NCBI GenBank assembly: GCA_022508925.1
Contig: JAFLUF010000004.1
Coordinates: forward strand, 1-56,699
DNA from: Oscillospiraceae bacterium
GTDB lineage: Bacteria > Bacillota > Clostridia > Oscillospirales > Ruminococcaceae
Direction of reading: 5' to 3'
DNA length: 56,699 nt
Both the position numbers and the translations under genes were made by a program. The notes under the pieces are model-generated. The model did not search any database. It saw nothing but the letters and a program-made list of their open reading frames with translations, and was not told the DNA's origin. Positions 8,622-56,633 of this stretch are shown piece by piece. Position 1 is the stretch's first letter; the number at the start of each line of letters is the position of its first letter.

Positions 8622-9140
8622 ATGGACAATATTTGTGAACAGCTTGTAGTAAAATCAAGAACAAGCTCGGACAGAGCAAAGGCTGTGCTCATTATTCTGG
8701 GAATGGCGGTCTTAGCCGCGGCTTTGCTGTTTCTGGCTTTTATAACCGGATTTCTCGTTTTCCTGCTGATAGCGGGCGCGGCGGTTTTCGGCGGAATATA
8801 TCTGCTTAACGGTATGGATATCGAGTACGAGTATATCATCACAAATAACGAGCTCGACATTGATAAGATCATCGGCAGACGGAAAAGAAAACGTATGATA
8901 ACCGTGGATCTGTCGAGGACGGAGGATTTTTGCCGTTATCCTATGCGGGAAGAACCCGACGCGGACGCCACGGTTCACGCTACAACGGGTCTTGAAGAAG
9001 ACGCGCGGTATCTTTTCGCGGTTCATAAGGATTACGGCAAGGTGGGCGTTATTTTCAATCCCAACAAAATAACAAGGGAGGCAATCGTGCGCGAGTTTCC
9101 GAATGCCCTGCGCGCGAGATTGGACGAAGATGTCAAGTAG
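8622..9140 (+). CDS. Membrane protein, possibly DUF6106-type
   Basis: A 172-residue protein with a short cytoplasmic N-terminus, two close hydrophobic segments (about residues 22-43 and 46-63), and a soluble C-terminal domain that begins with a beta-strand pattern (EYEYIITNNELDIDKIIGRR) reminiscent of bacterial PH-like membrane proteins. A run of basic residues (GRRKRKR) follows. GGGAGAG lies before the ATG. The last 11 bases overlap the next gene, an AcpS-like protein, so the pair is probably coupled. The family name is tentative and no biochemical role can be assigned. Confidence 0.75.
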   Translation: MDNICEQLVVKSRTSSDRAKAVLIILGMAVLAAALLFLAFITGFLVFLLIAGAAVFGGIYLLNGMDIEYEYIITNNELDIDKIIGRRKRKRMITVDLSRTEDFCRYPMREEPDADATVHATTGLEEDARYLFAVHKDYGKVGVIFNPNKITREAIVREFPNALRARLDEDVK

Positions 9141-9507
9141 TATTTTTATCAGAACGGGAACTGCCATTGTAGAAATTGACAGAATTAAAAAGGCTCAGAA
9201 AAACAAACGCTTTTTGTCGGACTATTTTTCCGCCGACGAGATAAGATTTTTTGTCAATCATAAGCTCAATCCGAATCTTATCGCCGAGAATTACTGTGTT
9301 AAAATCGCGATAGCGAAGGCGTTGGGTTCCGGCATGAGAATTATCCACGCGAGAGATATTTCCGTACTCCGCGACAGGATCGGTTCGCCGGTACTTATAC
9401 TTGACGGTATCGCCAAAATGATGGAACAGCGCGAGGGTTATGTGGTGGAGCTGTCGGTTGCGAGCTGTAAGGAATACGCTACCGCGAGCGTTGTTGTACA
9501 TAAATGA
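9130..9507 (+). CDS. AcpS-like protein, probably catalytically dead
   Basis: This 125-residue protein has the overall pattern of holo-acyl-carrier-protein synthase (AcpS), which moves phosphopantetheine from CoA to ACP. The N-terminal GTAIVEIDRI aligns with the family's G-x-D-I-x-E-x-x-R-I, the middle VKIAIAKALGSG with K-E-A-x-x-K-A-x-G-T-G, and the end CKEYATASVVV with the final strand. The Asp and Glu that bind magnesium (Asp8 and Glu58 in Bacillus AcpS) are Ala12 and Ile59 here, and the usual His before KEYA is missing. The ATG at 9130 is chosen because it matches the family N-terminus; it overlaps the upstream gene by 11 bases. Function is unknown, and a true AcpS presumably lies elsewhere. 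Confidence 0.72.
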   Translation: MSSSIFIRTGTAIVEIDRIKKAQKNKRFLSDYFSADEIRFFVNHKLNPNLIAENYCVKIAIAKALGSGMRIIHARDISVLRDRIGSPVLILDGIAKMMEQREGYVVELSVASCKEYATASVVVHK

Positions 9508-9741: not shown

Positions 9742-12291
9742 ATGTTCGGGGGTGGTTTTGTGAAGCGGTTGGCTATAAGCATGGCGGCACACGTGGACGC
9801 GGGCAAGACCACGCTTTCCGAGGCGCTTTTGTTTGCGGCGGGAGAAATAAGAAAGCAGGGGCGCGTAGATAACGGCGACGCTTTTCTTGACAACAACTCT
9901 CAGGAGCGCGAAAGAGGCATCACGATTTTTTCCAAACAAGCTCTTCTGCGGCTTGACGGTGCGGAATTTACGCTTATAGACACTCCGGGGCACGCGGATT
10001 TCGCCGCGGACGCCGAACGGGCGTTTGCCGTTTCGGACTGCGCGGCGCTTGTTATAAGCGGCGCTGACGGCGTTCAGAGCAGAACGCGTACTATTCTGCG
10101 TTTGCTTGACAGAGCGGACCTTCCGGTGTTTACATTTGTAAACAAAATGGATATCGCACACAAGACCAAGACAGAGCTTTTGGAAGAACTTCGCTCGCTT
10201 GACAGGCGCTTTGCCGATTTTTCCGAAAACATTGCGGAGACCTCGGCGGAGTTCGACGAGGAATGTATGAATTACCTTTTAGACAGCGGAGAAGTCCCCG
10301 ATGAGATGATCGCGCGGGCTGTTAAAGAGCGTAAAATATTTCCCGTTTTGTTCGGTTCGGCTTTAAAAAACATGGGCGTCGGGGACTTTGCCGATCTGCT
10401 CGCAAGGTTTGCGATGCCAAAGGAAATATACAACAATTTTGCCGCGCAGGTGTTCAAAATTTCCTCGGACAAGAACGGTGTGAGAGAAACGCAGCTCAAA
10501 ATAAACGGCGGAGAGCTTCGCGTCAGACAGGAGCTTAACGGCGAAAAAATAACGCAGATACGGGTCTACAACGGCGAGAAATTTACTTCTGCCGAAACCG
10601 CGGCGGCGGGACAGCTTTGTGCAGTTACAGGTCTTTCAAAGACGTTTGCGGGGCAGTGCTTCGGAGAGCAGAAGCCGCCGAGCGAGCCGTCGGTGCGCGC
10701 CGCGCTTAGTTATAACGTGATGTTTGACAGCCGCGTAAATATAACGGAAGCGTATTCAAAGCTGAAAATTCTTGAGCAGGAGGATCCCCAGCTTCGCTTT
10801 TCGCTCTCGCACGGAGAGATACAGGCGGAGGTAATGGGCGAGATACAGCTTGAGGTGCTGCAGACCGTTATAAAAGAGCGCTTTGGTTTGTTCGCGGCAT
10901 TCGGCGAGGGGAGAATCTCCTACAAGGAAACAATAACCGAACGTGTCGAGGGCGTAGGGCATTTCGAGCCGCTCAGACATTACGCCGAGGTGCATCTGCT
11001 CATCGAGCCTTTGCCGAGGGGGAGCGGCGTAGTTTTTGCGCGCGACTGCCGGAATCTTGACGAAAACTGGCAGAGGCTGATAATGTCGCATCTTCACGAA
11101 AGGCGGCATATCGGCGTTCTTACAGGCTCGCCGATAACCGACGTGAAAATCACGCTTAAATCTGGCAAAGCGCATTTAAAGCACACCGAGGGCGGGGATT
11201 TCCGCGAGGCGACCTACCGAGCGGTAAGGCAGGGATTAGCCTCCGCAGTATCACAGCTTTTGGAGCCATTTTACGAGTTTTCGCTTGAAGTGCCGCAAAG
11301 CGCCGTCGGCAGAGCGCTTACGGACTTGCAGAGAATGGGCGCCGAGTTTTCATCTCCTAAACCTGTCGGAGAATTCTCCGTTATCGGGGGAATTTGCCCC
11401 GTGTCGGAAATGCAGGGCTATCACAGGGAGATCATTGCGTACACCCATGGAGAGGGAAGGCTCTCGTGCGAAATAAAGGGATATTTCCCATGTCACAACG
11501 CCGATGAGGTAATAGAAAAAATCGGTTATGATTTCAACGCCGATGTTGAGAATACCGCCGACAGCGTGTTCTGCTCGCACGGCGCGGGACATTTGGTGAA
11601 GTGGAACGAGGTTTACGGACAAATGCACCTCGAAAGCATATTTTCAAAGCCGCGCAAAGTGACCGAAGCCGAGATAAATTCCTACAAAAGCCGCGCCGCA
11701 ACCGATAAGGAGCTTATGGAGATATTCGAGCGGACATACGGAAAGATCAGGCACAGAACTGACGGAAAATCCGAAAGAACCGCGATGCGCCGCGACAAAC
11801 AGATCGAAAACGCGGGTGAGAGCAAAAGGCCGAAGGCAAAGCCTCTCGGCGAGGAATACCTGCTGGTTGACGGGTACAATATCATTTTCGCGTGGGACGA
11901 GCTTAAGGCAATAGCCGCGCAAAATCTCGACAGCGCGCGCATGAAGCTGATAAGCATTATGTGCAATTATCAGGCGTTCAGAAAATGCAATCTCATTCTG
12001 GTTTTTGACGCGTACAAAGTAAAAAGCGACAGAGAGATCGAAACGATAGGCGGTATCACCGTTGTGTACACAAAAGAAGCCGAGACGGCCGATGCGTTTA
12101 TCGAAAAGACGGCGCACTATCTCGGAAAGCCCGAAAATAATAACCGCGTGCGTGTCGCGACAAACGACGGAGTAGAGCAGCTTATAATAATCGGCGGCGG
12201 CGCACAGCGGGTCTCGGCGGAAATTTTCAGGCTTGAGGTAAACGAGGTAGAGAGGTCTATACGGGAAATTCTCGAAGAGCTTCACAAATAG
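9742..12291 (+). CDS. TetM-like ribosomal-protection GTPase fused to Rae1/YacP-like NYN nuclease domain
   Basis: An 849-residue two-part protein. Residues about 7-650 follow the EF-G-like TetM/TetW/TetO plan: G1 AHVDAGKTT, switch motif ERERGITIF, G3 DTPGHADF, G4 FVNKMD, and a C-terminal IGYDFNADVENTADSVFCSHGAGH close to the ribosomal-protection family. After a basic linker, residues about 705-849 match Rae1 (YacP) of Bacillus, an NYN-fold endonuclease that cuts mRNA in the ribosomal A site: LLVDGYNIIFAWDEL, LVFDAYKVK, TKEAETADAFIEK and VATNDGVEQL. A GTG start at 9760 behind GGGGGTGG is an alternative to the ATG. It could protect or rescue ribosomes; tetracycline resistance should not be assumed. 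trmO follows eight bases later. Confidence 0.88.
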   Translation: MFGGGFVKRLAISMAAHVDAGKTTLSEALLFAAGEIRKQGRVDNGDAFLDNNSQERERGITIFSKQALLRLDGAEFTLIDTPGHADFAADAERAFAVSDCAALVISGADGVQSRTRTILRLLDRADLPVFTFVNKMDIAHKTKTELLEELRSLDRRFADFSENIAETSAEFDEECMNYLLDSGEVPDEMIARAVKERKIFPVLFGSALKNMGVGDFADLLARFAMPKEIYNNFAAQVFKISSDKNGVRETQLKINGGELRVRQELNGEKITQIRVYNGEKFTSAETAAAGQLCAVTGLSKTFAGQCFGEQKPPSEPSVRAALSYNVMFDSRVNITEAYSKLKILEQEDPQLRFSLSHGEIQAEVMGEIQLEVLQTVIKERFGLFAAFGEGRISYKETITERVEGVGHFEPLRHYAEVHLLIEPLPRGSGVVFARDCRNLDENWQRLIMSHLHERRHIGVLTGSPITDVKITLKSGKAHLKHTEGGDFREATYRAVRQGLASAVSQLLEPFYEFSLEVPQSAVGRALTDLQRMGAEFSSPKPVGEFSVIGGICPVSEMQGYHREIIAYTHGEGRLSCEIKGYFPCHNADEVIEKIGYDFNADVENTADSVFCSHGAGHLVKWNEVYGQMHLESIFSKPRKVTEAEINSYKSRAATDKELMEIFERTYGKIRHRTDGKSERTAMRRDKQIENAGESKRPKAKPLGEEYLLVDGYNIIFAWDELKAIAAQNLDSARMKLISIMCNYQAFRKCNLILVFDAYKVKSDREIETIGGITVVYTKEAETADAFIEKTAHYLGKPENNNRVRVATNDGVEQLIIIGGGAQRVSAEIFRLEVNEVERSIREILEELHK

Positions 12292-12299
12292 AGGTTAAT

Positions 12300-12971
12300 A
12301 TGAATATTGAGCCGATAGCGCATATCGAAAATGATTTTAAAGAGAAATTCGGAATACCGCGGCAAAGCGGTATATGTCAACTGCGCTCGAAAATCGTTTT
12401 CGAGCCGAAATACAGCGATATAAACGCGCTTCGCGGGCTTGAGGATTTTACTCATATCTGGCTTGTCTGGGGCTTTTCCGAAGCGGTCTGCGGGGAGTTT
12501 TCCCCCACTGTCCGACCGCCGCGGCTTGGGGGAAATGTAAGAAAGGGCGTGTTCGCGACACGCTCGCCGTTTCGACCGAATTCGCTCGGGCTGAGCGCGG
12601 TAAGGCTTGAAGAGATACGGGCGGACGGAACGCTTATCGTAAGCGGCGCGGATCTGATGGATTCTACGCCTATTTATGATATCAAACCGTATCTTCCGTA
12701 CGCGGACAGCATTTCCGACGCGTCAAACGGCTGGGCTGCGGAGTTTATCGGGGAACAAATTGACGTTGAGTTTCCCGAAGAATTGCTGGAAAAAATTCCC
12801 GCAGAAAAAAGGAACGGACTTTTGCGGCTCCTTGCCGAAGACCCGCGCCCGCAGTATCAGGACTCTCCCGAGCGGCTGTACACAATGTCCTTCGGAGAGT
12901 ATCAGATAAGCTTTCGCGTATGCGATGACAAGCTTACTGTGATCGATGTATTTACATCCGATGAAGAATAA
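12300..12971 (+). CDS. trmO: tRNA (t6A37) N6-methyltransferase, TsaA-like
   Basis: A 223-residue member of the TrmO (YaeB/TsaA-like) family, which uses S-adenosylmethionine to methylate t6A at position 37 of some threonine tRNAs. Visible motifs are the N-terminal IEPIAHIENDFKEKFGIPRQ, LEDFTHIWLVWGF, and the strongly conserved FATRSPFRPNSLGLSAVRLE, followed by DLMDSTPIYDIKPYLPYAD. The length is usual for the family. It follows the GTPase-nuclease gene by eight bases and is likely co-transcribed, placing two translation-related genes together. Cytosolic. Confidence 0.92.
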   Translation: MNIEPIAHIENDFKEKFGIPRQSGICQLRSKIVFEPKYSDINALRGLEDFTHIWLVWGFSEAVCGEFSPTVRPPRLGGNVRKGVFATRSPFRPNSLGLSAVRLEEIRADGTLIVSGADLMDSTPIYDIKPYLPYADSISDASNGWAAEFIGEQIDVEFPEELLEKIPAEKRNGLLRLLAEDPRPQYQDSPERLYTMSFGEYQISFRVCDDKLTVIDVFTSDEE

Positions 12972-13107: not shown

Positions 13108-15381
13108 ATGGATATAGAAAAGCAGATAGAATGGCTCAGACCCGACCGCATTTTAAAGCTTTATGACGGCGAGAAAAATATGCTCGGAATGACAAGGCTG
13201 TTTGTTGTGGGAATAGGAAAGAACGGCGCCGACTGCCTTATAAGAGTAAAGGATATAGCCGAAAACAGGTTTTCCGCGGAGACAGACAGGATACGCTATC
13301 TTGCCTTCGGGTTTGACGATGATATAGATAAAACGGAGTTTCACGGCTCGGAGCTTGCCGAGGGAGAGCGCGTCTCGATCGACCGGCAGGAATCGGTTTT
13401 GAAATATCTCGACAATCCCGAGCTTCTTTCCGAATACGCGCTTGAATGGTTCGACATGAACCTCAAGAATTATTCGTCCAATCCTCCGCTGTACGGGCTG
13501 TGGAAGCGCCAGTGCGGAAGGATCGCGCTGTTTCATCACATTGATGAGATCATTTCCAAGCTCACCGCGGTAGTAAACGATTTTTCCAGATCCGATTCTC
13601 CTCTTGAGATCGTTCTTACCGGAAATATGGGAGATCCGCTTTTTACCGGTTCGGTCATTGATTTCGGATACATACTCAAGGAAATGTTTTCAAGTCTCAA
13701 TACTTATCCTGTAAAAGTAAACGCTCTTATGTTCGCGGGGGACACCGCCAATCTTTTTGAAACGGACGCGAGAAACCTTGCCAACTACTACGCGTATACC
13801 ATACTTACAAAAGGAGATATTGACAAATTTCAGGGCAAAAAGGTCTCGTTTTCCCAGAAATATACAAACGGCTTTGAGATAAGCTCCGATAAGCCGCCGT
13901 TCAACGCCTGCTTTATCGCGGGCGCGGAGAATACGTATGAGGAGACGATTACAAAGGCGGCGGAAAAAATAATCTCCGCTTCGGAGTTTATCTACAAAAA
14001 GGACGACGACGCCGACAGAGCCATGTCGTTTAATCTTCTCGGACAAAGCCAGAACCACTCGTTCAGCTGCCTCGCCTACGATATAAGCGGCGCCGAGGTC
14101 CCGCTTGGCGAAATTGTTTCATATCTTTCCGCAAAAATATTCTTTAAGCTTTGCGACAGCCTGAGGACAAACTCCATCGGAGATCTTCAGCTTTCGATCT
14201 ACGCTAACAGGGCCACTCCCGACGCGTCTTTTCTCGCATCGAGAGCCGGCGTTGTTCCCAGGCTGGAGTTTGACGAGATGCTTAATCCGCTGTTTACCAT
14301 AAACTCGCTGAAAAAGGGCGGAGAAACGTCGAAGCACTATGTAACGGAAAGAGTAGACGAGACCGTCCGGCTTACCGAAAAGGGCGCGGAAATGTCTTTT
14401 GACACTATTGCCGCGGAAATAGAGGAAGCGTGTTTGAGCGCGCTTACGGATATTGAGAAAGGACCGTTCTGCGCTAACGAGATAATGAAAAGCTGCATTA
14501 AAGAGCTTTCACGGGAGATCCAAAAGGCAAAGGAGATCAAGGAGGATTCCGACGAAGTGATCGCAAGGCGCGAGAAGCTCCTTATCTCCGACTATCGTAA
14601 GCTTAAATCCACGCCCGCGTTTATGGCGACAACGGCGAAGAGATATTATATACAGACGCTTACGGATTACGCGGAATGTCTTAAAACTCACAAAACCATA
14701 GATACCATGCTTGATTTCTATACAAAGCTCAAGGATAGGCTTGTCGCGTTTAAGGATGAAAAACTCGACCAGAGCACAAAGCTGTTTACCGTCGAGCAGA
14801 AAGAGTTTCTCAATATGCTCAGAACGGAAAGCTCCGGAGGCTGTGTCCGCAAGGCTTTTGAGATAAGTTATCCGGAAATGACGTCAAAGCTCGACAAGCT
14901 GATCGACGAGATTCCCGAGACCACAAAGGAGCTCGCGTTTAAGAAAATGAAGCTTGACACGGGCGACGACCCGAAAGCTCTTCCGCGCGAGATAATAAAC
15001 CTCGCGGCGAAATGCTTCGGAAGATTTCTGCTTATGGGCTTTAATGATTTCTGCGAGTTTTTCGGCTCGGACAGCTCGCTTATGAAGGAGCTCCAATACT
15101 GCTTTGACTCGGTCGATATAAAAACTCCCGCAAGCGGAGAAACGCTTTCGCGCGCCATATGCCCGCAAAGCGTACAGCAGGGCGATATCGCGCCCATAAA
15201 GGCTTCGCATAAGGGCGCGAATCATATATGGAACGGCTCTCCGATGTTTAACGCGGTATTTGTCGTTCAGACGAAAAACGGCGTAAAGCTTGAAAAATTC
15301 AAGGACTATAATCAGTGGGAGAATATGCGCTACGCTTTTGTAAACGACGGTCTTAAAAAGCAGGGCATCAAAATATTTTGA
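13108..15381 (+). CDS. Probable tubulin-like protein (PF13809-type), degenerate nucleotide site
   Basis: A soluble 757-residue protein. The first 200 residues follow the layout of large bacterial tubulin-like proteins: a strand and turn LFVVGIGKNGADCLIRVKD in place of the usual FIGLGGTG-x-K, then RIRYLAFGFDDD in place of the LAIDTD strand, LWKRQCGRIALFHHID like the conserved R-x-x-GR-x-A-L helix, and LEIVLTGNMGDPLFTGSVID where the GGGTGSG GTP loop is expected. The glycine-rich loop is clearly altered, so nucleotide binding may be lost. The C-terminal 450 residues are mostly helical with no motif I know. It forms a two-gene unit with the transglutaminase gene 16 bp downstream. The family assignment is by pattern, not by search. 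Confidence 0.55.
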   Translation: MDIEKQIEWLRPDRILKLYDGEKNMLGMTRLFVVGIGKNGADCLIRVKDIAENRFSAETDRIRYLAFGFDDDIDKTEFHGSELAEGERVSIDRQESVLKYLDNPELLSEYALEWFDMNLKNYSSNPPLYGLWKRQCGRIALFHHIDEIISKLTAVVNDFSRSDSPLEIVLTGNMGDPLFTGSVIDFGYILKEMFSSLNTYPVKVNALMFAGDTANLFETDARNLANYYAYTILTKGDIDKFQGKKVSFSQKYTNGFEISSDKPPFNACFIAGAENTYEETITKAAEKIISASEFIYKKDDDADRAMSFNLLGQSQNHSFSCLAYDISGAEVPLGEIVSYLSAKIFFKLCDSLRTNSIGDLQLSIYANRATPDASFLASRAGVVPRLEFDEMLNPLFTINSLKKGGETSKHYVTERVDETVRLTEKGAEMSFDTIAAEIEEACLSALTDIEKGPFCANEIMKSCIKELSREIQKAKEIKEDSDEVIARREKLLISDYRKLKSTPAFMATTAKRYYIQTLTDYAECLKTHKTIDTMLDFYTKLKDRLVAFKDEKLDQSTKLFTVEQKEFLNMLRTESSGGCVRKAFEISYPEMTSKLDKLIDEIPETTKELAFKKMKLDTGDDPKALPREIINLAAKCFGRFLLMGFNDFCEFFGSDSSLMKELQYCFDSVDIKTPASGETLSRAICPQSVQQGDIAPIKASHKGANHIWNGSPMFNAVFVVQTKNGVKLEKFKDYNQWENMRYAFVNDGLKKQGIKIF

Positions 15382-15397
15382 GGTATAGTTTTACTTA

Positions 15398-18091
15398 ATG
15401 TCTGAAAAAATGAACAAAAGAAAAAAAGCCGAGTTTATTCTTGTATTTGACAGATATTTCACGAGCAAGCCAAACGCCGTTTTGTCCGTACTCAAAAGAA
15501 CGCTTTACGCGTGCGCGGAATGCGTGTGTATGATGTTCTGCCTTCTGGGCATTTACAGTATTTACGCAAACCCGTGGATAATCGCGGGCTGCTGCGTGGT
15601 ATTTACGGCGTTTTTCAGCTTTATTTTCTGCTTTGTAAGAAAGAGATTTGCTGTCCCCGCGTTTGCGCTTATAATCGCGCTGATAATTTACGAGAATATC
15701 GAAGCCGTAACGGAAAAGCTTACATATTTCATCGACGCGGTCTTCAGGGCGATGGACGGCATTGTGTTCGGCATGAACAGATATATGTGGCACCGCGATC
15801 TTACGGAAAACGTTGAGAGCGAAGTTATATTCGCGCTTATAGGAGTTTCGTGCGTTCTTTCGCTGATATGCGCGGGGGCTATGTTCAGAAAGCCGTCCGG
15901 CGTTGTGCCGCTTATTACTTTTATTGTGCTTTTCGCGCCCATGGGAATAGCTCAGAACCTGTCGTTCAACCTGTGGGTCGTTCCTACAACAGCGCTTTTG
16001 CTCGGCGGATTTGCCGTGTCAAAAGCATTTTCAAGCGGCGTTATTACGCGCGGCGGAGTATACGAGGGCTGCCGCAGGGCGTTTATCCGTAAAGAGCGCT
16101 CGTTTGGCTCGGGCGCGGCTAAAGCTTCTGTGATAGAGAGCGCCGGTCTTAACGCGGTGCATTATTCAAAATATTTCTCCGCGGCTGTCTGCGCCGCCGC
16201 GGTTTTCACCGCTACCGGTTTTTTAGGCTCGATCATAATGGACGGCCGCGGCGGTATCGATTACAGCGGAGTGTATGAATATTTCGCGAATATAGGAAGG
16301 AACGTCTCTCCTTCTTCGGGCGGAGAGGAAACCGGCTTTCCCGATCTGGGCTTTCTTACAGACGAGTTCAACCAGTCTCTTGGAATTGTCTCTCCCGGTG
16401 TGAGCGAGCGCGAGGTGCTGAAAGTTCAGAACTTCGGACCGGAGGTTTATCTGCGCGGAGATATCGGCGTAGATTTCAACGGGCTCAGCTGGTCGTCGCA
16501 TTTATCCGGTCTGTTTAACAGCGCAAAGGATGTGCCGGGCAAATACCGTCCGGCGGAGATACGGCTTCTCAGAGATCTCGAAAATTCGTTCAGAAATAAA
16601 TATCCGAGCATATATGTTGCCGATATTCCCGAAAGCTATCTTTCAGCCGGAGAAGGCGCTCTTGTCAGAGATGGAAAAATAAATCTCGAGTACCTTACGC
16701 GGACAAATGTTGTTTTCCTGCCCGCGTATGTTGACGGTTATTCGGTTTTTTACGGAGCGGGATATGATATATACGGAGACTATGTCGTCAGAAGCAGGGC
16801 TGAAAAAATAGAAGATATTGGATACACCGCGCTCGTTCCGTCACTCAATTATACCGGATACGGGGCTGAAGACAAGCTTATGCTTGTTTCGGCGGCTCAG
16901 AGGATCAGCGAGATCTATGAATTTGCCAACACCTTTGATACAAATGTCGTTCCTGATTGGAGCGGAGCAGGGATATATAAAGAGTATCTGGATTATGTGC
17001 ATGAGACTTACCTTGATGTTCCCGACAGCCTGCGCGGTGATTTAACGGCTTTTCTTAAAGATAACGGGCTTTATTCGGGCAGTCTCAGTGGGGACGATAA
17101 TATACAGAAGTATTCTGTCTGTGTGGAGATCACGGATTTCTTGAAGGACAACTACGCCTATTCGCTCAATACGGACAACGGGCTAACAGATCCTGTCATG
17201 ACCTTTCTCACCGAAACAAAAAGCGGACACTGCGCGCTTTACGCAAGCGCCATGACGCTTATGCTGCGCTCTATGGATATTCCCGCGAGATACTGCACGG
17301 GTTTTATTGCCCCGCATACCGATTACGGAAATACGGCGGTGTTAAAGTCCAAAAACCTTCACGCGTGGTGTGAGGTATACTTTGACGAGATAGGCTGGAT
17401 AACTTTTGACCCCACCGGCTCGTCTGTGTCCGGCGATATCGAGATAGTTGATCCTTTCAGCGGAGTAAGCTCATCATCCGAGACCGAAAGCAGCGATTCC
17501 GAAATTTCAGATGACAGCGAAAGCAGCTCATACACTGATGTTGAAGATCCCGCGACCGACAGCGACGACGAAAGCGACACCGATCCCGAAGACTACGGCG
17601 ATGACAGTGATGACAGCGATTTCGGCGGTTCGTATCCTCATGATGAACATAAAGGCGTAAATGTTCTGCCGTATGTTATAGCTTCGGCCGCGGCGGTTCT
17701 TCTTATCGCGCTTGCTGTCATATCGGTATATAAATTCAGGAAACTTGACAAGGAAGCTAAAAATGTGCTTGAAAAGTCTCGGTCTTTCGGAAGCTGCGAG
17801 GAGCTGTACGCAAAGATAATCGAGGTGCTTAAGCTTTGCGGTTTCAGGCAGAATTCCGGCGAACAGCCCGAAAGATTTTTCCTGCGGGCAGACAAACATT
17901 TTAAGACCAAACTTTCAAAGCACGCTGAAATGCTGATGAAAATTGCTTTCGGAAACGCGGAGTTCAGCGGCGACGAGGTTTTGAAAACAGCCCTGCTCCT
18001 GAATTCTCTTTTTGAAGCCGCCGATTCTCAGCTTGTCGTCATAGGACGCGTCAGACTCCGTAAAATAATCATAAACAAAATACTTCCGTAA
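15398..18091 (+). CDS. TgpA-like membrane transglutaminase
   Basis: An 897-residue protein. The N-terminal part (about 25-300) holds several hydrophobic membrane segments, as in the DUF3488/TgpA family. A large external region follows, with a transglutaminase core at about 575-680: SGHCALYASAMTLMLRSM (Cys612), NLHAWCEVYFDE (His655) and WITFDPTGSS (Asp671) give a complete catalytic triad. After it comes a long Ser/Asp/Glu-rich linker (about 685-750), one more membrane segment (about 757-778) and a cytoplasmic tail. Such proteins usually neighbour MoxR and DUF58 genes; here the partner is the tubulin-like gene instead. The substrate is unknown. The ATG is weakly supported, with GAGG about 15 bases upstream. 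Confidence 0.85.
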   Translation: MSEKMNKRKKAEFILVFDRYFTSKPNAVLSVLKRTLYACAECVCMMFCLLGIYSIYANPWIIAGCCVVFTAFFSFIFCFVRKRFAVPAFALIIALIIYENIEAVTEKLTYFIDAVFRAMDGIVFGMNRYMWHRDLTENVESEVIFALIGVSCVLSLICAGAMFRKPSGVVPLITFIVLFAPMGIAQNLSFNLWVVPTTALLLGGFAVSKAFSSGVITRGGVYEGCRRAFIRKERSFGSGAAKASVIESAGLNAVHYSKYFSAAVCAAAVFTATGFLGSIIMDGRGGIDYSGVYEYFANIGRNVSPSSGGEETGFPDLGFLTDEFNQSLGIVSPGVSEREVLKVQNFGPEVYLRGDIGVDFNGLSWSSHLSGLFNSAKDVPGKYRPAEIRLLRDLENSFRNKYPSIYVADIPESYLSAGEGALVRDGKINLEYLTRTNVVFLPAYVDGYSVFYGAGYDIYGDYVVRSRAEKIEDIGYTALVPSLNYTGYGAEDKLMLVSAAQRISEIYEFANTFDTNVVPDWSGAGIYKEYLDYVHETYLDVPDSLRGDLTAFLKDNGLYSGSLSGDDNIQKYSVCVEITDFLKDNYAYSLNTDNGLTDPVMTFLTETKSGHCALYASAMTLMLRSMDIPARYCTGFIAPHTDYGNTAVLKSKNLHAWCEVYFDEIGWITFDPTGSSVSGDIEIVDPFSGVSSSSETESSDSEISDDSESSSYTDVEDPATDSDDESDTDPEDYGDDSDDSDFGGSYPHDEHKGVNVLPYVIASAAAVLLIALAVISVYKFRKLDKEAKNVLEKSRSFGSCEELYAKIIEVLKLCGFRQNSGEQPERFFLRADKHFKTKLSKHAEMLMKIAFGNAEFSGDEVLKTALLLNSLFEAADSQLVVIGRVRLRKIIINKILP

Positions 18092-26697: not shown

Positions 26698-27199
26698 CTA
26701 TTCTATCCACAACAGCGAAAAATATTTCAACTGTCTTGAGGGAACTCTTCATTCAAAGCTTTTTGATATGAACGTTCCGTTTCAGGCGAAGAACTGTGAG
26801 GAAGTCTACGCCAAGCGCTGCGCGGAGTTTTTTGAGAAGCTCGACCTTGACAGCGAGGCGTTTTCCGAGCTTGTTTACGCGGGAATAGACTATTTAAACG
26901 ACCTGCTTGACGAGCGCGGAGACGAGTTTGATCTGGGCGAGGAGCTTGACGAGATAACTCCCGAGGATTTCCTGAGAATAACCGCGCCGGTGGTTATCGT
27001 TTTTGAAATGCACAATTTGCTGACCGAAGACGACAGTCCCGTCGGGTTCAGCATCAAAATGCATTTAAGGGCAGTGCCCGACGAGCTTTTCGAGCTTGCG
27101 ATGCAGGAGGAGAGGGCGATATATGCGGGAGAATACCGCGGTGTTTCGCCTTGGAACGATAAGCTGCTGAAGAAAAAATGGAACTATGTCGAAGAATAA
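26690..27199 (+). CDS. Unknown acidic protein inside the purine operon (169 aa)
   Basis: A soluble, strongly acidic protein (for example DERGDEFDLGEELDEITPED) with a predicted helical first half and a strand-rich second half containing VVIVFEMHNLL. It closes with Trp and Lys residues (PWNDKLLKKKWNYVEE). The ATG overlaps the end of purN by eight bases, a sign of translational coupling, and purO follows 17 bp after the stop. No family is recognised and no catalytic motif is evident. Confidence 0.75.
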   Translation: MSDYSIHNSEKYFNCLEGTLHSKLFDMNVPFQAKNCEEVYAKRCAEFFEKLDLDSEAFSELVYAGIDYLNDLLDERGDEFDLGEELDEITPEDFLRITAPVVIVFEMHNLLTEDDSPVGFSIKMHLRAVPDELFELAMQEERAIYAGEYRGVSPWNDKLLKKKWNYVEE

Positions 27200-27216
27200 T
27201 TTTTAAGGAGTTTTTT

Positions 27217-27927
27217 ATGATCACACTTGACAAAGAACTTAATTCGCTCGCGTATCACGGACGCGGTATCGTTATCGGAAAAAGCGGTAATAAGGCGGTC
27301 ATCGCGTACTTTATCATGGGCAGAAGCGAAAACAGCCGCAACCGCGTTTTTGTTGAGGAAGGCGACGGCATTCGCACTCAGGCCTTCGACGAGAGCAAAA
27401 TGACCGACCCGCATCTTATAATCTACGCGCCCGTGCGTGTGCTCGGCAATAAGACTATCGTTACAAACGGCGACCAGACCGATACTATCTACGAGCTTAT
27501 GGACAAGCAGATGACGTTTGAGGAAAGCCTTCGCACACGCGAGTTTGAGGACGACAAGCCCAATTTCACTCCCAGAATTTCGGGAATCGTTCACATTGAA
27601 AAGGGAACAATGAATTACGCCATGTCTATTCTCAAAAGCGCGGACGGCAATCCCGATTCGTGCAGAAGATATACCTTCGCCTACTCTAATCCGCAGAGCG
27701 GCACGGGAAGCTTTATCCATACCTACGCGGGCGACGAGCATAACGGCAGGCTCCCGAGCTTTGAGGGAGAGCCTAAGGACGTCGTTATCCCCGATATGAG
27801 CCTTGACGAGTTTACCGATTTTGTCTGGAACAACCTCAACGCGGATAATAAAGTCTCGCTTTTCACGCGCTGTATTGACCTTGAGACGGGAAAGTTTGAA
27901 AGCAGGATAGTTAACAAGAATAAATGA
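27217..27927 (+). CDS. purO: IMP cyclohydrolase, PurO family
   Basis: A 236-residue protein matching the PurO-type IMP cyclohydrolase family (PF07826), known first from archaea, which closes FAICAR to IMP. Recognisable parts are the N-terminal YHGRGIVIGKSGNKAVIAYF, IMGRSENSRNRVF, RISGIVHIEKGTMNYAMSIL and YAGDEHNGRLPSFEGEP. The ATG at 27217 is chosen because AAGGAG precedes it and family members begin at this point; an upstream in-frame start would run into the previous gene. It replaces the cyclohydrolase half of bacterial PurH, with the formyltransferase half encoded by the next gene. Confidence 0.88.
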   Translation: MITLDKELNSLAYHGRGIVIGKSGNKAVIAYFIMGRSENSRNRVFVEEGDGIRTQAFDESKMTDPHLIIYAPVRVLGNKTIVTNGDQTDTIYELMDKQMTFEESLRTREFEDDKPNFTPRISGIVHIEKGTMNYAMSILKSADGNPDSCRRYTFAYSNPQSGTGSFIHTYAGDEHNGRLPSFEGEPKDVVIPDMSLDEFTDFVWNNLNADNKVSLFTRCIDLETGKFESRIVNKNK

Positions 27928-27984
27928 GATAACCTTATACAGATATTGATTTAAAGAATACAACAGGACTTTAAGGAGGACAAT

Positions 27985-29163
27985 ATGAACGAGCTTGAAC
28001 TTAAATACGGCTGCAACCCCAACCAGAAGCCGTCCCGCATTTTTATGGAAAACAAAAAGGACTTGCCGATAGAGGTGCTTAACGGAAAGCCCGGCTACAT
28101 CAACTTTATGGACGCCTTTAACGGCTGGCAGCTTGTAAAGGAGCTTAAAAAGGCAACCGGAAAGCCCGCCGCAACGTCCTTTAAGCACGTTTCTCCCGCG
28201 GGCGCGGCGATAGGACTTCCGCTTTCGGAAACTCTCGCGAAGATATATTGGGTGGACGATCTGGGTGAGCTTTCGCCGCTTGCCTGTGCGTACGCTCGGG
28301 CGAGAGGCGCGGACAGAATGTCGAGCTACGGCGATTTTATCGCGCTTTCGGACGTTTGCGACGCTTCTACCGCGAGAATTATCCAGCGCGAGGTATCCGA
28401 CGGAGTTATAGCTCCCGGTTATGACAATGACGCGCTCGAAATTCTCAAGTCCAAGAGAAAGGGAACCTACAACATCATTAAAATCGACCCCGATTATGTT
28501 CCCGAGCAGCTTGAGCGCAAGCAGGTGTTCGGAATTACCTTCGAGCAGGGCAGAAACGAGCTTGTGATAAACGAAGAGCTTTTCGCAAACCGCCCTACGG
28601 CAAATAAGAATATTCCTCAGAATGCGCTCGACGACCTTGCGCTTGCGCTTATCACTCTTAAATACACCCAGTCCAATTCCGTGGCCTACGCTTCGGGCGG
28701 ACAGGCTATCGGCATAGGCGCGGGACAGCAGTCGAGAATACACTGCACGCGCCTTGCGGGTACAAAGGCTGACAACTGGTATCTCAGGCAGTCGCCTACA
28801 GTCATGGACTTGCAGTTTGTTGACGATATCCGCCGCGCCGACCGCGACAACGCGATCGATCTTTACATCGGCGAGGACTATATGGACGTTTTGGCAGAGG
28901 GCGAATGGCAGAAGATATTCAAGGTAAAGCCCGAGGTGTTTACACGCGAGAAAAAGCGCGAATGGCTGGATACAATGAAGGGAACGTCTCTCGGCTCGGA
29001 CGCGTTTTTCCCGTTCGGCGACAACATCGAGCGCGCACACAAGAGCGGCGTAGAGTTTATCGCCCAGCCCGGAGGCTCTATCCGCGATGACAACGTGATT
29101 GAAACTTGTGACAAATATGGCATAGCGATGGCGTTTACGGGTATCCGCCTGTTTCATCATTAA
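27985..29163 (+). CDS. purV: Stand-alone AICAR formyltransferase
   Basis: A 392-residue protein equal to the AICAR transformylase domain of PurH without the cyclohydrolase domain. It moves a formyl group from 10-formyltetrahydrofolate to AICAR. Visible parts are LELKYGCNPNQKPSRI, VLNGKPGYINFMDAFNGWQL, ATSFKHVSPAGAAIG (which includes the catalytic Lys-His), KYTQSNSVAYASGGQAIGIG and IAQPGGSIRDDNVI. AAGGAGG precedes the ATG. It is the last gene of the operon, ahead of a strong terminator. The symbol follows the usage for single-domain versions. Confidence 0.92.
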   Translation: MNELELKYGCNPNQKPSRIFMENKKDLPIEVLNGKPGYINFMDAFNGWQLVKELKKATGKPAATSFKHVSPAGAAIGLPLSETLAKIYWVDDLGELSPLACAYARARGADRMSSYGDFIALSDVCDASTARIIQREVSDGVIAPGYDNDALEILKSKRKGTYNIIKIDPDYVPEQLERKQVFGITFEQGRNELVINEELFANRPTANKNIPQNALDDLALALITLKYTQSNSVAYASGGQAIGIGAGQQSRIHCTRLAGTKADNWYLRQSPTVMDLQFVDDIRRADRDNAIDLYIGEDYMDVLAEGEWQKIFKVKPEVFTREKKREWLDTMKGTSLGSDAFFPFGDNIERAHKSGVEFIAQPGGSIRDDNVIETCDKYGIAMAFTGIRLFHH

Positions 29164-55715: not shown

Positions 55716-56633
55716 ATGAGCGATAAAATATTAAAGCAGGATATGAGTGAAAAAGCTCCCGAGCGGACGATGCTTATGGCTCAGCTTTTATTCAGGGAAA
55801 AGCCCGGGGAGGTTTCTGTTTCGGATATTCAGAAGGTCGTTGAGGATATATTCGGAGAAATAGAATTAGTGTATGACGCTCCGGAGGCGCCGTTTTTCGC
55901 GCTGAAAAATTACCGCGCGACCTTTAAAAAAGAAGATGGCAAGGAATACAATCATTCGGTCGACAACGGCGACGGCACTGTTTCGCTGCCCGTGCTTGCT
56001 AATTTCATAATCGGCGGGGAATTCAATACAGAGCTTGACCCTCTTATTAAAAGCCAATTCTGGGATTTTAAAGGCAATTTCGACGAGTTTAAGTATCACA
56101 CGTCTGTGTTTGGAATGCTTTCTGGAACCATGCCTTATAAACAGGAAGCCGAGCTGTTTTTAAAGGAGATAGAGGCGGCTCTCAGATGCTTTCCTACTGC
56201 CGAGGCTATCTATGTCCCGCACAGCGGAAAGCTTACTACAGTCGATCATTTCCGCGAGGGAATGGAGTTTGACCTGTCAGGCAGATTTATCAGAACAGCG
56301 GTGAACGCGCGCTTTTTCAGAATTGAAAATTCGGAGGACTTTGTAGTCGATACTCTCGGATTTTTCGCGTTCGGAGGTGCTGACGTTCAGATGCATTTTC
56401 ACGGTCTTAACCCCGATGACGTAGTGAGGTATGTGTACAATATCGCGAGCTATCAGTTTGACGCGGATTTCCCGATAAAAAGCGGAGACACCGTTGACGG
56501 GCTTGATAAAAGCGGGCAGATATCTCAGGCGATCCAGTGGAAAACGCAGTACGAAAACTCGCTTATCCAGCCGGTTCGCGCTGTTCTTGACATTAACTGT
56601 GGTGAGTTTGCCTCGGGAAACAGAGGCAAATAA
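55716..56633 (+). CDS. DUF4261-domain protein
   Basis: A 305-residue soluble protein whose second half (about 210-290) has the DUF4261 pattern: VDTLGFFAFGGADVQMHFHG followed by NIASYQFDADFPIKSGDTV and the QWKTQYENSLIQP end. The first half (about 15-130) is a mixed alpha/beta region with MLMAQLLFREKPGEVS. Function in the family is unknown. AGGAG precedes the ATG, 23 bp after pgsA, so it is likely the last gene of that operon; a dispersed repeat follows it. Confidence 0.85.
   Translation: MSDKILKQDMSEKAPERTMLMAQLLFREKPGEVSVSDIQKVVEDIFGEIELVYDAPEAPFFALKNYRATFKKEDGKEYNHSVDNGDGTVSLPVLANFIIGGEFNTELDPLIKSQFWDFKGNFDEFKYHTSVFGMLSGTMPYKQEAELFLKEIEAALRCFPTAEAIYVPHSGKLTTVDHFREGMEFDLSGRFIRTAVNARFFRIENSEDFVVDTLGFFAFGGADVQMHFHGLNPDDVVRYVYNIASYQFDADFPIKSGDTVDGLDKSGQISQAIQWKTQYENSLIQPVRAVLDINCGEFASGNRGK

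Follow-up and report, generated by a model that had tools for sequence, protein, structure and literature searches.

The stretch analysed here (the window) comprises the 56,699 nucleotides at positions 1 to 56,699 of contig JAFLUF010000004.1, from an Oscillospiraceae bacterium (assembly GCA_022508925.1). It carries a gene in which an EF-G/Tet-type GTPase and a YacP/Rae1-type NYN nuclease are encoded in one uninterrupted frame, and this fusion is real. An earlier note on this DNA had taken the N-terminal part for a TetM/TetW-like GTPase and the C-terminal part for a Rae1/YacP nuclease. Both domains are matched by Pfam and by phmmer, the front part matching EF-G, TetO and TetM among solved structures, and the four nuclease motifs that the note had named (LLVDGYNI, VFDA, ETADAFIEK and VATND) all occur in the translation. 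The order of parts is GTPase, C-terminal extension, a linker of ~100 residues that is modelled with low confidence, and nuclease (Table 1). Since the codon aligned with residue 7 is the exact start in 9 of 28 homologues, and in the window gene that codon is a GTG preceded by GGGGGTGG, translation probably starts at GTG 9760, which would give a protein of 843 amino acids.

Nuclease part. A profile search of the kind proposed in the earlier note finds NYN_YacP at 2.4e-44 (151.7 bits against a Pfam cut-off of 24.6), which places the domain in that family. The note had named loss of conserved Asp residues in relatives as a possible refutation; none of the four is lost in any of 55 fused rows. D710, N713, D756, D784, E788 and D809 are each invariant in an alignment of 29 fused proteins. 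The C-terminal tail is what differs. Standalone Rae1 proteins (n=40) end in a tail of median 43 residues with net charge +3, while the fused NYN domains (n=55) end in one of median 19 residues with net charge -2, and the tail motif phi-x-x-[WFYL]-[RK]-[RK] is found in 26 of 40 standalone proteins against 1 of 55 fused. In the solved YacP chain (5mq8/5mq9), which we take to be B. subtilis Rae1, the tail reads FEKWRRGD and R166 lies within the motif. R166P is among the rae1 suppressor alleles described in B. subtilis and interpreted there as loss-of-function alleles (PMC6613710). The window protein, with a tail of 18 amino acids and net charge -3, lacks this basic tail; by sequence it has the NYN_YacP domain and is not a complete Rae1. 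On a quick tree of 84 NYN domains (44 fused, 40 standalone) the fused label needs two changes, so the fusion is placed as having arisen once or very few times.

GTPase part. With GTP_EFTU, EFG_IV and EFG_C matches, intact G motifs and the catalytic His, the front part belongs to the EF-G/EF2 family of translational GTPases. The alignment of 29 fused proteins has 160 invariant columns, among them the letters of the GTP-binding motifs except A20 and M136, and H84, the catalytic His; domain IV is the most conserved region (34 of 117 columns invariant, residues 386-502). A distant fused row (L068) has AHVDGGKT in place of AHVDAGKT. A quick tree was built from 45 proteins. In it, all 24 fused GTPases fall in one clade with a Shimodaira–Hasegawa-like approximate likelihood-ratio (SH-aLRT) support of 97, all six unfused GTPases are sister to it (95), ribosomal-protection proteins (RPPs) come next, and EF-G is the outgroup; the RPP and Solobacterium rows are long-branched and their placement is less sure. 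On this tree the fused GTPases form one clade, sister to the unfused and outside the true RPPs. A profile search of the window's own genome found only one other EFG_IV protein (L168, G000:C60:43367-43720). Its motifs are degenerate (GHGGSGKT, DAPGQ, no NKxD), and its place is among divergent EF-G copies. A canonical EF-G was not seen in that genome, perhaps because the assembly is incomplete.

Extension and linker. The match of six unfused proteins to the extension and linker region ends after 53-70 of its 121 positions. An AlphaFold2 model built from 25 sequences with a deeper alignment has a mean predicted local distance difference test (pLDDT) of 76.4 and a predicted template modelling score (pTM) of 0.58; an earlier model with a shallower alignment had a mean pLDDT of 56.6. 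The nuclease is folded in the model, and residues 603-701 lie below pLDDT 50. The 50 PDB matches listed by Foldseek were all EF-G/EF-2-type chains or ribosome entries, and they carry no information on the NYN fold.

Table 1. Features of the fused gene and its downstream neighbour, in window coordinates
Feature	Position	Strand	Basis or remark
Open reading frame as listed	9742-12291	+	single open frame, 849 codons
Whole fused gene from probable GTG start	9760..12291	+	homologue starts and GGGGGTGG upstream
GTPase (G) domain, residues 11-223; AHVDAGKT, RGIT, DTPGH, NKMD	9772..10410	+	Pfam GTP_EFTU 8e-47
Domain II, residues 233-303	10438..10650	+	Pfam EF-G_D2 6.4e-05, under its cut-off
Domain III, residues 339-386	10756..10899	+	Pfam EFG_III 0.0032, under its cut-off
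Domain IV, residues 390-502	10909..11247	+	Pfam EFG_IV 1.5e-16
Domain-IV tip loop GKAHLKHTEGGDF, residues 475-487	11164..11202	+	KHTEGGD invariant in 29/29 rows
Domain V, residues 505-586	11254..11499	+	Pfam EFG_C 1.9e-16
C-terminal extension with FC.HGAG..V.W motif	11500..11676	+	common to unfused sister GTPases
Linker with conserved DKELMEIFERTYG segment	11677..11853	+	unmatched in 6 unfused proteins; AlphaFold2 pLDDT <50 at residues 603-701
YacP/Rae1-type NYN nuclease domain, residues 706-846	11857..12279	+	Pfam NYN_YacP 707-846, 2.4e-44; phmmer 5mq8/5mq9 1.3e-24
Catalytic-type Asp D710 (D7 of YacP chain)	11869..11871	+	55/55 fused, 40/40 standalone
Asp D756 (D53 of YacP chain)	12007..12009	+	55/55 fused, 40/40 standalone
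Asp D784 (D81 of YacP chain)	12091..12093	+	55/55 fused, 40/40 standalone
Asp D809 (D104 of YacP chain)	12166..12168	+	55/55 fused, 40/40 standalone
trmO	12300..12971	+	8 bases downstream of fusion stop; genus-level neighbour

Distribution. The fusion is the only NYN_YacP protein found by profile search in its own genome, whose assembly is 89.85% complete. Across the window's own genome and 60 relatives (61 in all), NYN_YacP exceeds its cut-off in 36, in 30 of them in frames of at least 834 codons and in the other six in frames of 132-746. The 29 loci fetched gave 28 complete fused homologues at 46-94% identity, the remaining locus being a sub-cut-off second match in one genome (G010). Fused-length frames are present in many family groups, and records deposited for Agathobacter rectalis and Monoglobus pectinilyticus also contain the fusion. 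The closest named relatives are metagenome-assembled genomes (MAGs) labelled Oscillospiraceae or Clostridia, and a Solobacterium MAG has a distant fusion (32-34% identity).

We examined co-occurrence with free-standing Rae1 in two overlapping samples, of 398 genomes from the phylum and 293 from the class. In the phylum sample, the 28 genomes with the fusion each have exactly one NYN_YacP match, while 187 of the 370 others have an over-cut-off NYN_YacP, part of these checked as standalone (Fisher p 1.6e-8, a value that treats related genomes as independent and should not be taken as a tally of independent events). In the class sample, where fused was defined by length as a frame of at least 800 codons, the matches listed cover 149 genomes: 83 fused, 59 with standalone copies only, and seven of intermediate length. 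No over-cut-off standalone copy occurs in 82 of the 83 fused-length genomes listed, and three other fused genomes have second NYN_YacP matches that are sub-cut-off. One genome (G499) has no linker match and carries standalone Rae1 only, which groups with the standalone lineage, whereas the five sampled relatives of its genus (G474, G562, G611, G645 and G690) are all fused; G499 seems to have lost the fusion. A family-level comparison of displacement covers five genomes only, one fused (G275) and four standalone. Taken together, the fusion appears to replace free-standing Rae1, which lends indirect weight to the Rae1-like role assumed in the earlier note.

Some individual genomes stand apart. 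G721 (L245, L247) is the one genome found with both forms, and its standalone copy is close to the standalone Rae1 of G499 (L246). In G672 (G672:C121:2829-3207) the linker match extends over two frames, of 678 and 295 codons, as if the fused gene were broken.

Published work describes Rae1 as an endoribonuclease of the A site and proposes that it enters stalled ribosomes (PMC8266666, PMC6613710, PMC10100781). We favour, tentatively and at somewhat less than an even chance, the reading that the fusion is a housekeeping-type factor in which ribosome targeting has passed from a Rae1-type nuclease to the GTPase, so that one chain would perform ribosome-dependent mRNA cleavage and would not serve drug resistance. 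EF-G-type factors put domain IV in the A site. The GTPase part would dock at the factor-binding site of a ribosome whose A site is vacant or blocked, domain IV would probe or clear that site and withdraw after GTP hydrolysis, and the nuclease, on its long flexible tether, would then enter the A site and cut the mRNA. Some hand-over of this kind would be needed because domain IV and the nuclease presumably cannot both occupy the A site. The fusion would in these bacteria stand in for free-standing Rae1, a role supported by their almost never occurring together, and the GTPase would replace the basic tail as ribosome anchor; loss of that tail fits such a transfer of targeting. This natural fusion to a ribosome-docking GTPase, without the Rae1 tail, offers a testable answer to how Rae1 chooses and enters ribosomes.

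A more specific version, which we consider possible but doubtful, is that of a one-chain bacterial no-go-decay factor: the GTPase would recognise stalled ribosomes, GTP hydrolysis would hand the A site to the tethered endonuclease, and cleavage would be GTP-gated.

Several observations weigh against the housekeeping reading. The clash of domain IV and nuclease in the A site is a difficulty in itself. The placement of the domains relative to each other in the AlphaFold2 model is uncertain, as its pTM indicates. Where all 40 standalone proteins have an Arg (R823 in the window protein), 20 of the 55 fused ones have Leu or Val, so that contacts of the nuclease may differ from those of standalone Rae1. 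Distant fused rows deviate in GTPase motifs (ANVDSGKT in L151, ITKMD in L150). G721, with fused and standalone forms together, is an exception to exclusivity among the 83 genomes listed, and since the fused proteins are approximately one clade, both exclusivity and tail loss may stem from a single event or a few. Finally, a chromosomal place is not universal: the replicons that carry the A. rectalis and M. pectinilyticus homologues are filed as plasmids (252 and 518 kb). Both are typed as non-mobilizable.

The strongest rival, though one that we hold to be unlikely, sees two loosely coupled activities: an ordinary Rae1 and an EF-G-like factor for rescue or elongation would share a chain so as to be co-expressed or co-localised, and no hand-over would be gated by GTP. 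Unfused sister GTPases do exist, often with a separate standalone Rae1. Nineteen class-sample genomes have such a sister in a frame of 624-729 codons (counted by eye, with G672 set aside), of which 13 also have standalone Rae1, six have no NYN_YacP and none is fused, and in the phylum sample standalone Rae1 accompanies the sister in 4 of 6 genomes; the long linker, modelled with low confidence, would also suit a loose joint. Loss of the basic tail, however, suggests that the nuclease depends on the GTPase part, and the linker segment conserved in the fused proteins is unmatched in the six unfused. Nor is there a sign of a separately made nuclease: an internal start at the conserved M682, which would yield one, was rejected since by eye no sequence resembling a ribosome-binding site precedes it.

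It is improbable that the nuclease targets rRNA or tRNA, in ribosome quality control or maturation, instead of mRNA. Atkinson 2015 cites a proposed role of YacP in rRNA/tRNA maturation and proposes that an RNase activity on rRNA be tested for (PMC4342817), but Rae1, the characterised close relative, is described as a ribosome-dependent mRNA nuclease.

Quite improbable, in our estimate, is a tetracycline-resistance RPP with an added RNase, the sense in which Atkinson 2015 suggested that such fusions may represent a novel resistance mechanism (PMC4342817). The best NCBIfam model for the window protein is indeed tet_protect, and the NCBI annotation pipeline (PGAP) gives the TetM/TetW/TetO/TetS family label to the fused A. 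rectalis homologue and to unfused ones of Ligilactobacillus salivarius. The window protein, however, scores 364.4 bits under that model, far below the curated cut-off of 775, as do two unfused sisters (430 and 402) and another fused protein (437), while an RPP control (L179, from G049) reaches 819.2. The domain-IV tip is likewise not of RPP type: it reads KHTEGGDF in the window protein and is of the KHT.GGDF type in fused and unfused relatives, apart from a few deviating rows, as against SPVSTPADF in the single RPP control and a VDSSEMAF type in EF-G. These two results support the earlier note's opinion that this is not a drug-resistance protein. Two genomes (G049 and G190) carry an RPP besides the fusion, which argues against a simple resistance role, and the gene neighbourhood is conserved within the genus. 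The RPP frames of these two genomes (L179 and L180, 644 codons) are identical across two families, a sign of recent transfer. Literature searches on whether relatives are resistant or susceptible yielded nothing of use.

An assembly chimera or annotation artefact, which a draft of 136 contigs might suggest, is vanishingly improbable and is refuted by the same fusion in 28 fetched homologues and in the deposited A. rectalis and Monoglobus records.

Neighbourhood. The earlier note had pointed to the neighbouring trmO, which also acts on translation. Of 24 loci from the window's own genus (the window itself plus 23 that were fetched), 22 have the gene no more than two genes downstream, as does a close MAG locus (L067). 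Outside the genus this holds for 1 of 19 loci, and the neighbours there are diverse; among the neighbours compared, no conserved operon partner was found outside the genus. trmO is probably not part of the fusion system. The overall interpretation of the note is supported in part: for the domains, the intact active-site residues and a probable non-resistance character, and indirectly for the Rae1-like role; it is weak in its link to trmO.

At 13108-18091 a tubulin-like protein (Pfam Tubulin_2, 757 amino acids) is immediately followed by a transglutaminase-core protein (897 amino acids); both families also occur elsewhere among the compared loci, each in 13 of them and on either strand. Upstream of the fusion, at 9103-9507, is a phosphopantetheinyl-transferase-like gene that is over the Pfam ACPS cut-off and scores 58.5 for TIGR00516 acpS, just under the cut-off of 59.8. 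A 658-amino-acid open reading frame at 27184-29160 on the minus strand has no Pfam match, and the overlapping plus-strand frame at 27985-29163 may be the real gene. At the window end, 55716-56633 on the plus strand encodes a DUF4261 protein. Neither the Rfam scan nor the tRNA scan of the window gave a match.

A phage or mobile origin was rejected, as no fusion appeared in scans of a set of viral contigs: the full alignment matched 49 loci, in no case reaching into the NYN part, and the scan with the NYN alignment gave no NYN match. Phage-collection NYN matches, 10 of 12 records listed, are to unannotated records. One of these, the UNVERIFIED Bacteriophage sp. record MT835563.1 (L190), contains the whole fusion, GTPase and NYN together, in a frame of 878 codons; its DNA may well be that of a host or a prophage edge. 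Three IMG/VR contigs (L191, L192 and L218) carry relatives of the sister GTPases at 41-43% identity, the first two at a contig start, and PHROG phrog_6880 matches the window protein at residues 8-629 with 403.7 bits. A role as a defence system was rejected, PADLOC giving only a weak GTPase match (E 0.0028).

The fusion itself is not new. According to Atkinson 2015, a YacP-like NYN domain was acquired by Tet proteins in ten species of clostridia (PMC4342817). New here, relative to that work, are the clade structure, the exclusivity with Rae1, the tail loss and the non-RPP scores. No other paper on the fusion turned up among the listings and passages searched, and works on the distribution of Rae1 may already mention fusions. 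Fused-length frames are common in the class, making up 83 of the 150 NYN_YacP places listed from the 293 genomes. The names that PGAP gives to fused homologues vary, one being labelled as tetracycline resistance and another as 'translation factor GTPase family protein', and resistance-gene counts in gut surveys may therefore be inflated by the family. If the fusion does cut mRNA on stalled ribosomes, a quality-control factor of many bacteria would be filed under drug resistance.

Compared with known systems, the window protein has the architecture of the Clostridiales Tet-NYN fusions of Atkinson 2015 (PMC4342817), a Tet-like translational GTPase with a YacP-like NYN domain, and falls within that family, a comparison made by architecture and not row by row against the species list of that paper. 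The unfused sister GTPases (frames of 651-674 codons) share with it GHFEPLRHYAEV-type and KHT.GGDF-type motifs, with some deviating letters, and the C-terminal extension; unlike the fusion they have no nuclease, and their similarity to it ends within the linker region. Tet(M) and Tet(O) are EF-G-like five-domain GTPases as well; the window protein differs from such RPPs in scoring under the family cut-off, in its domain-IV tip and in its C-terminal extension, which is absent from the single aligned RPP control. Rae1/YacP of Bacillus subtilis resembles the fusion in its nuclease domain (E 1.3e-24) and in all four Asp residues, but is standalone and ends in the basic tail FEKWRRGD that the fusion lacks. 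The nuclease folds of SmrB, MutS2 and Cue2 are unrelated to NYN, and the eukaryotic system consists of separate proteins. If the no-go-decay reading were true, the fusion would be an independent invention of a coupling that is spread over Hbs1, Dom34 and Cue2 in eukaryotes. The likeness to SmrB/MutS2 and to Hbs1/Dom34-Cue2 is functional, recognition of stalled ribosomes being coupled to mRNA cleavage (SmrB, Cue2) or to rescue (MutS2, which in B. subtilis splits stalled ribosomes without mRNA cleavage; PMC10897456), and is an analogy of working, not a family match.

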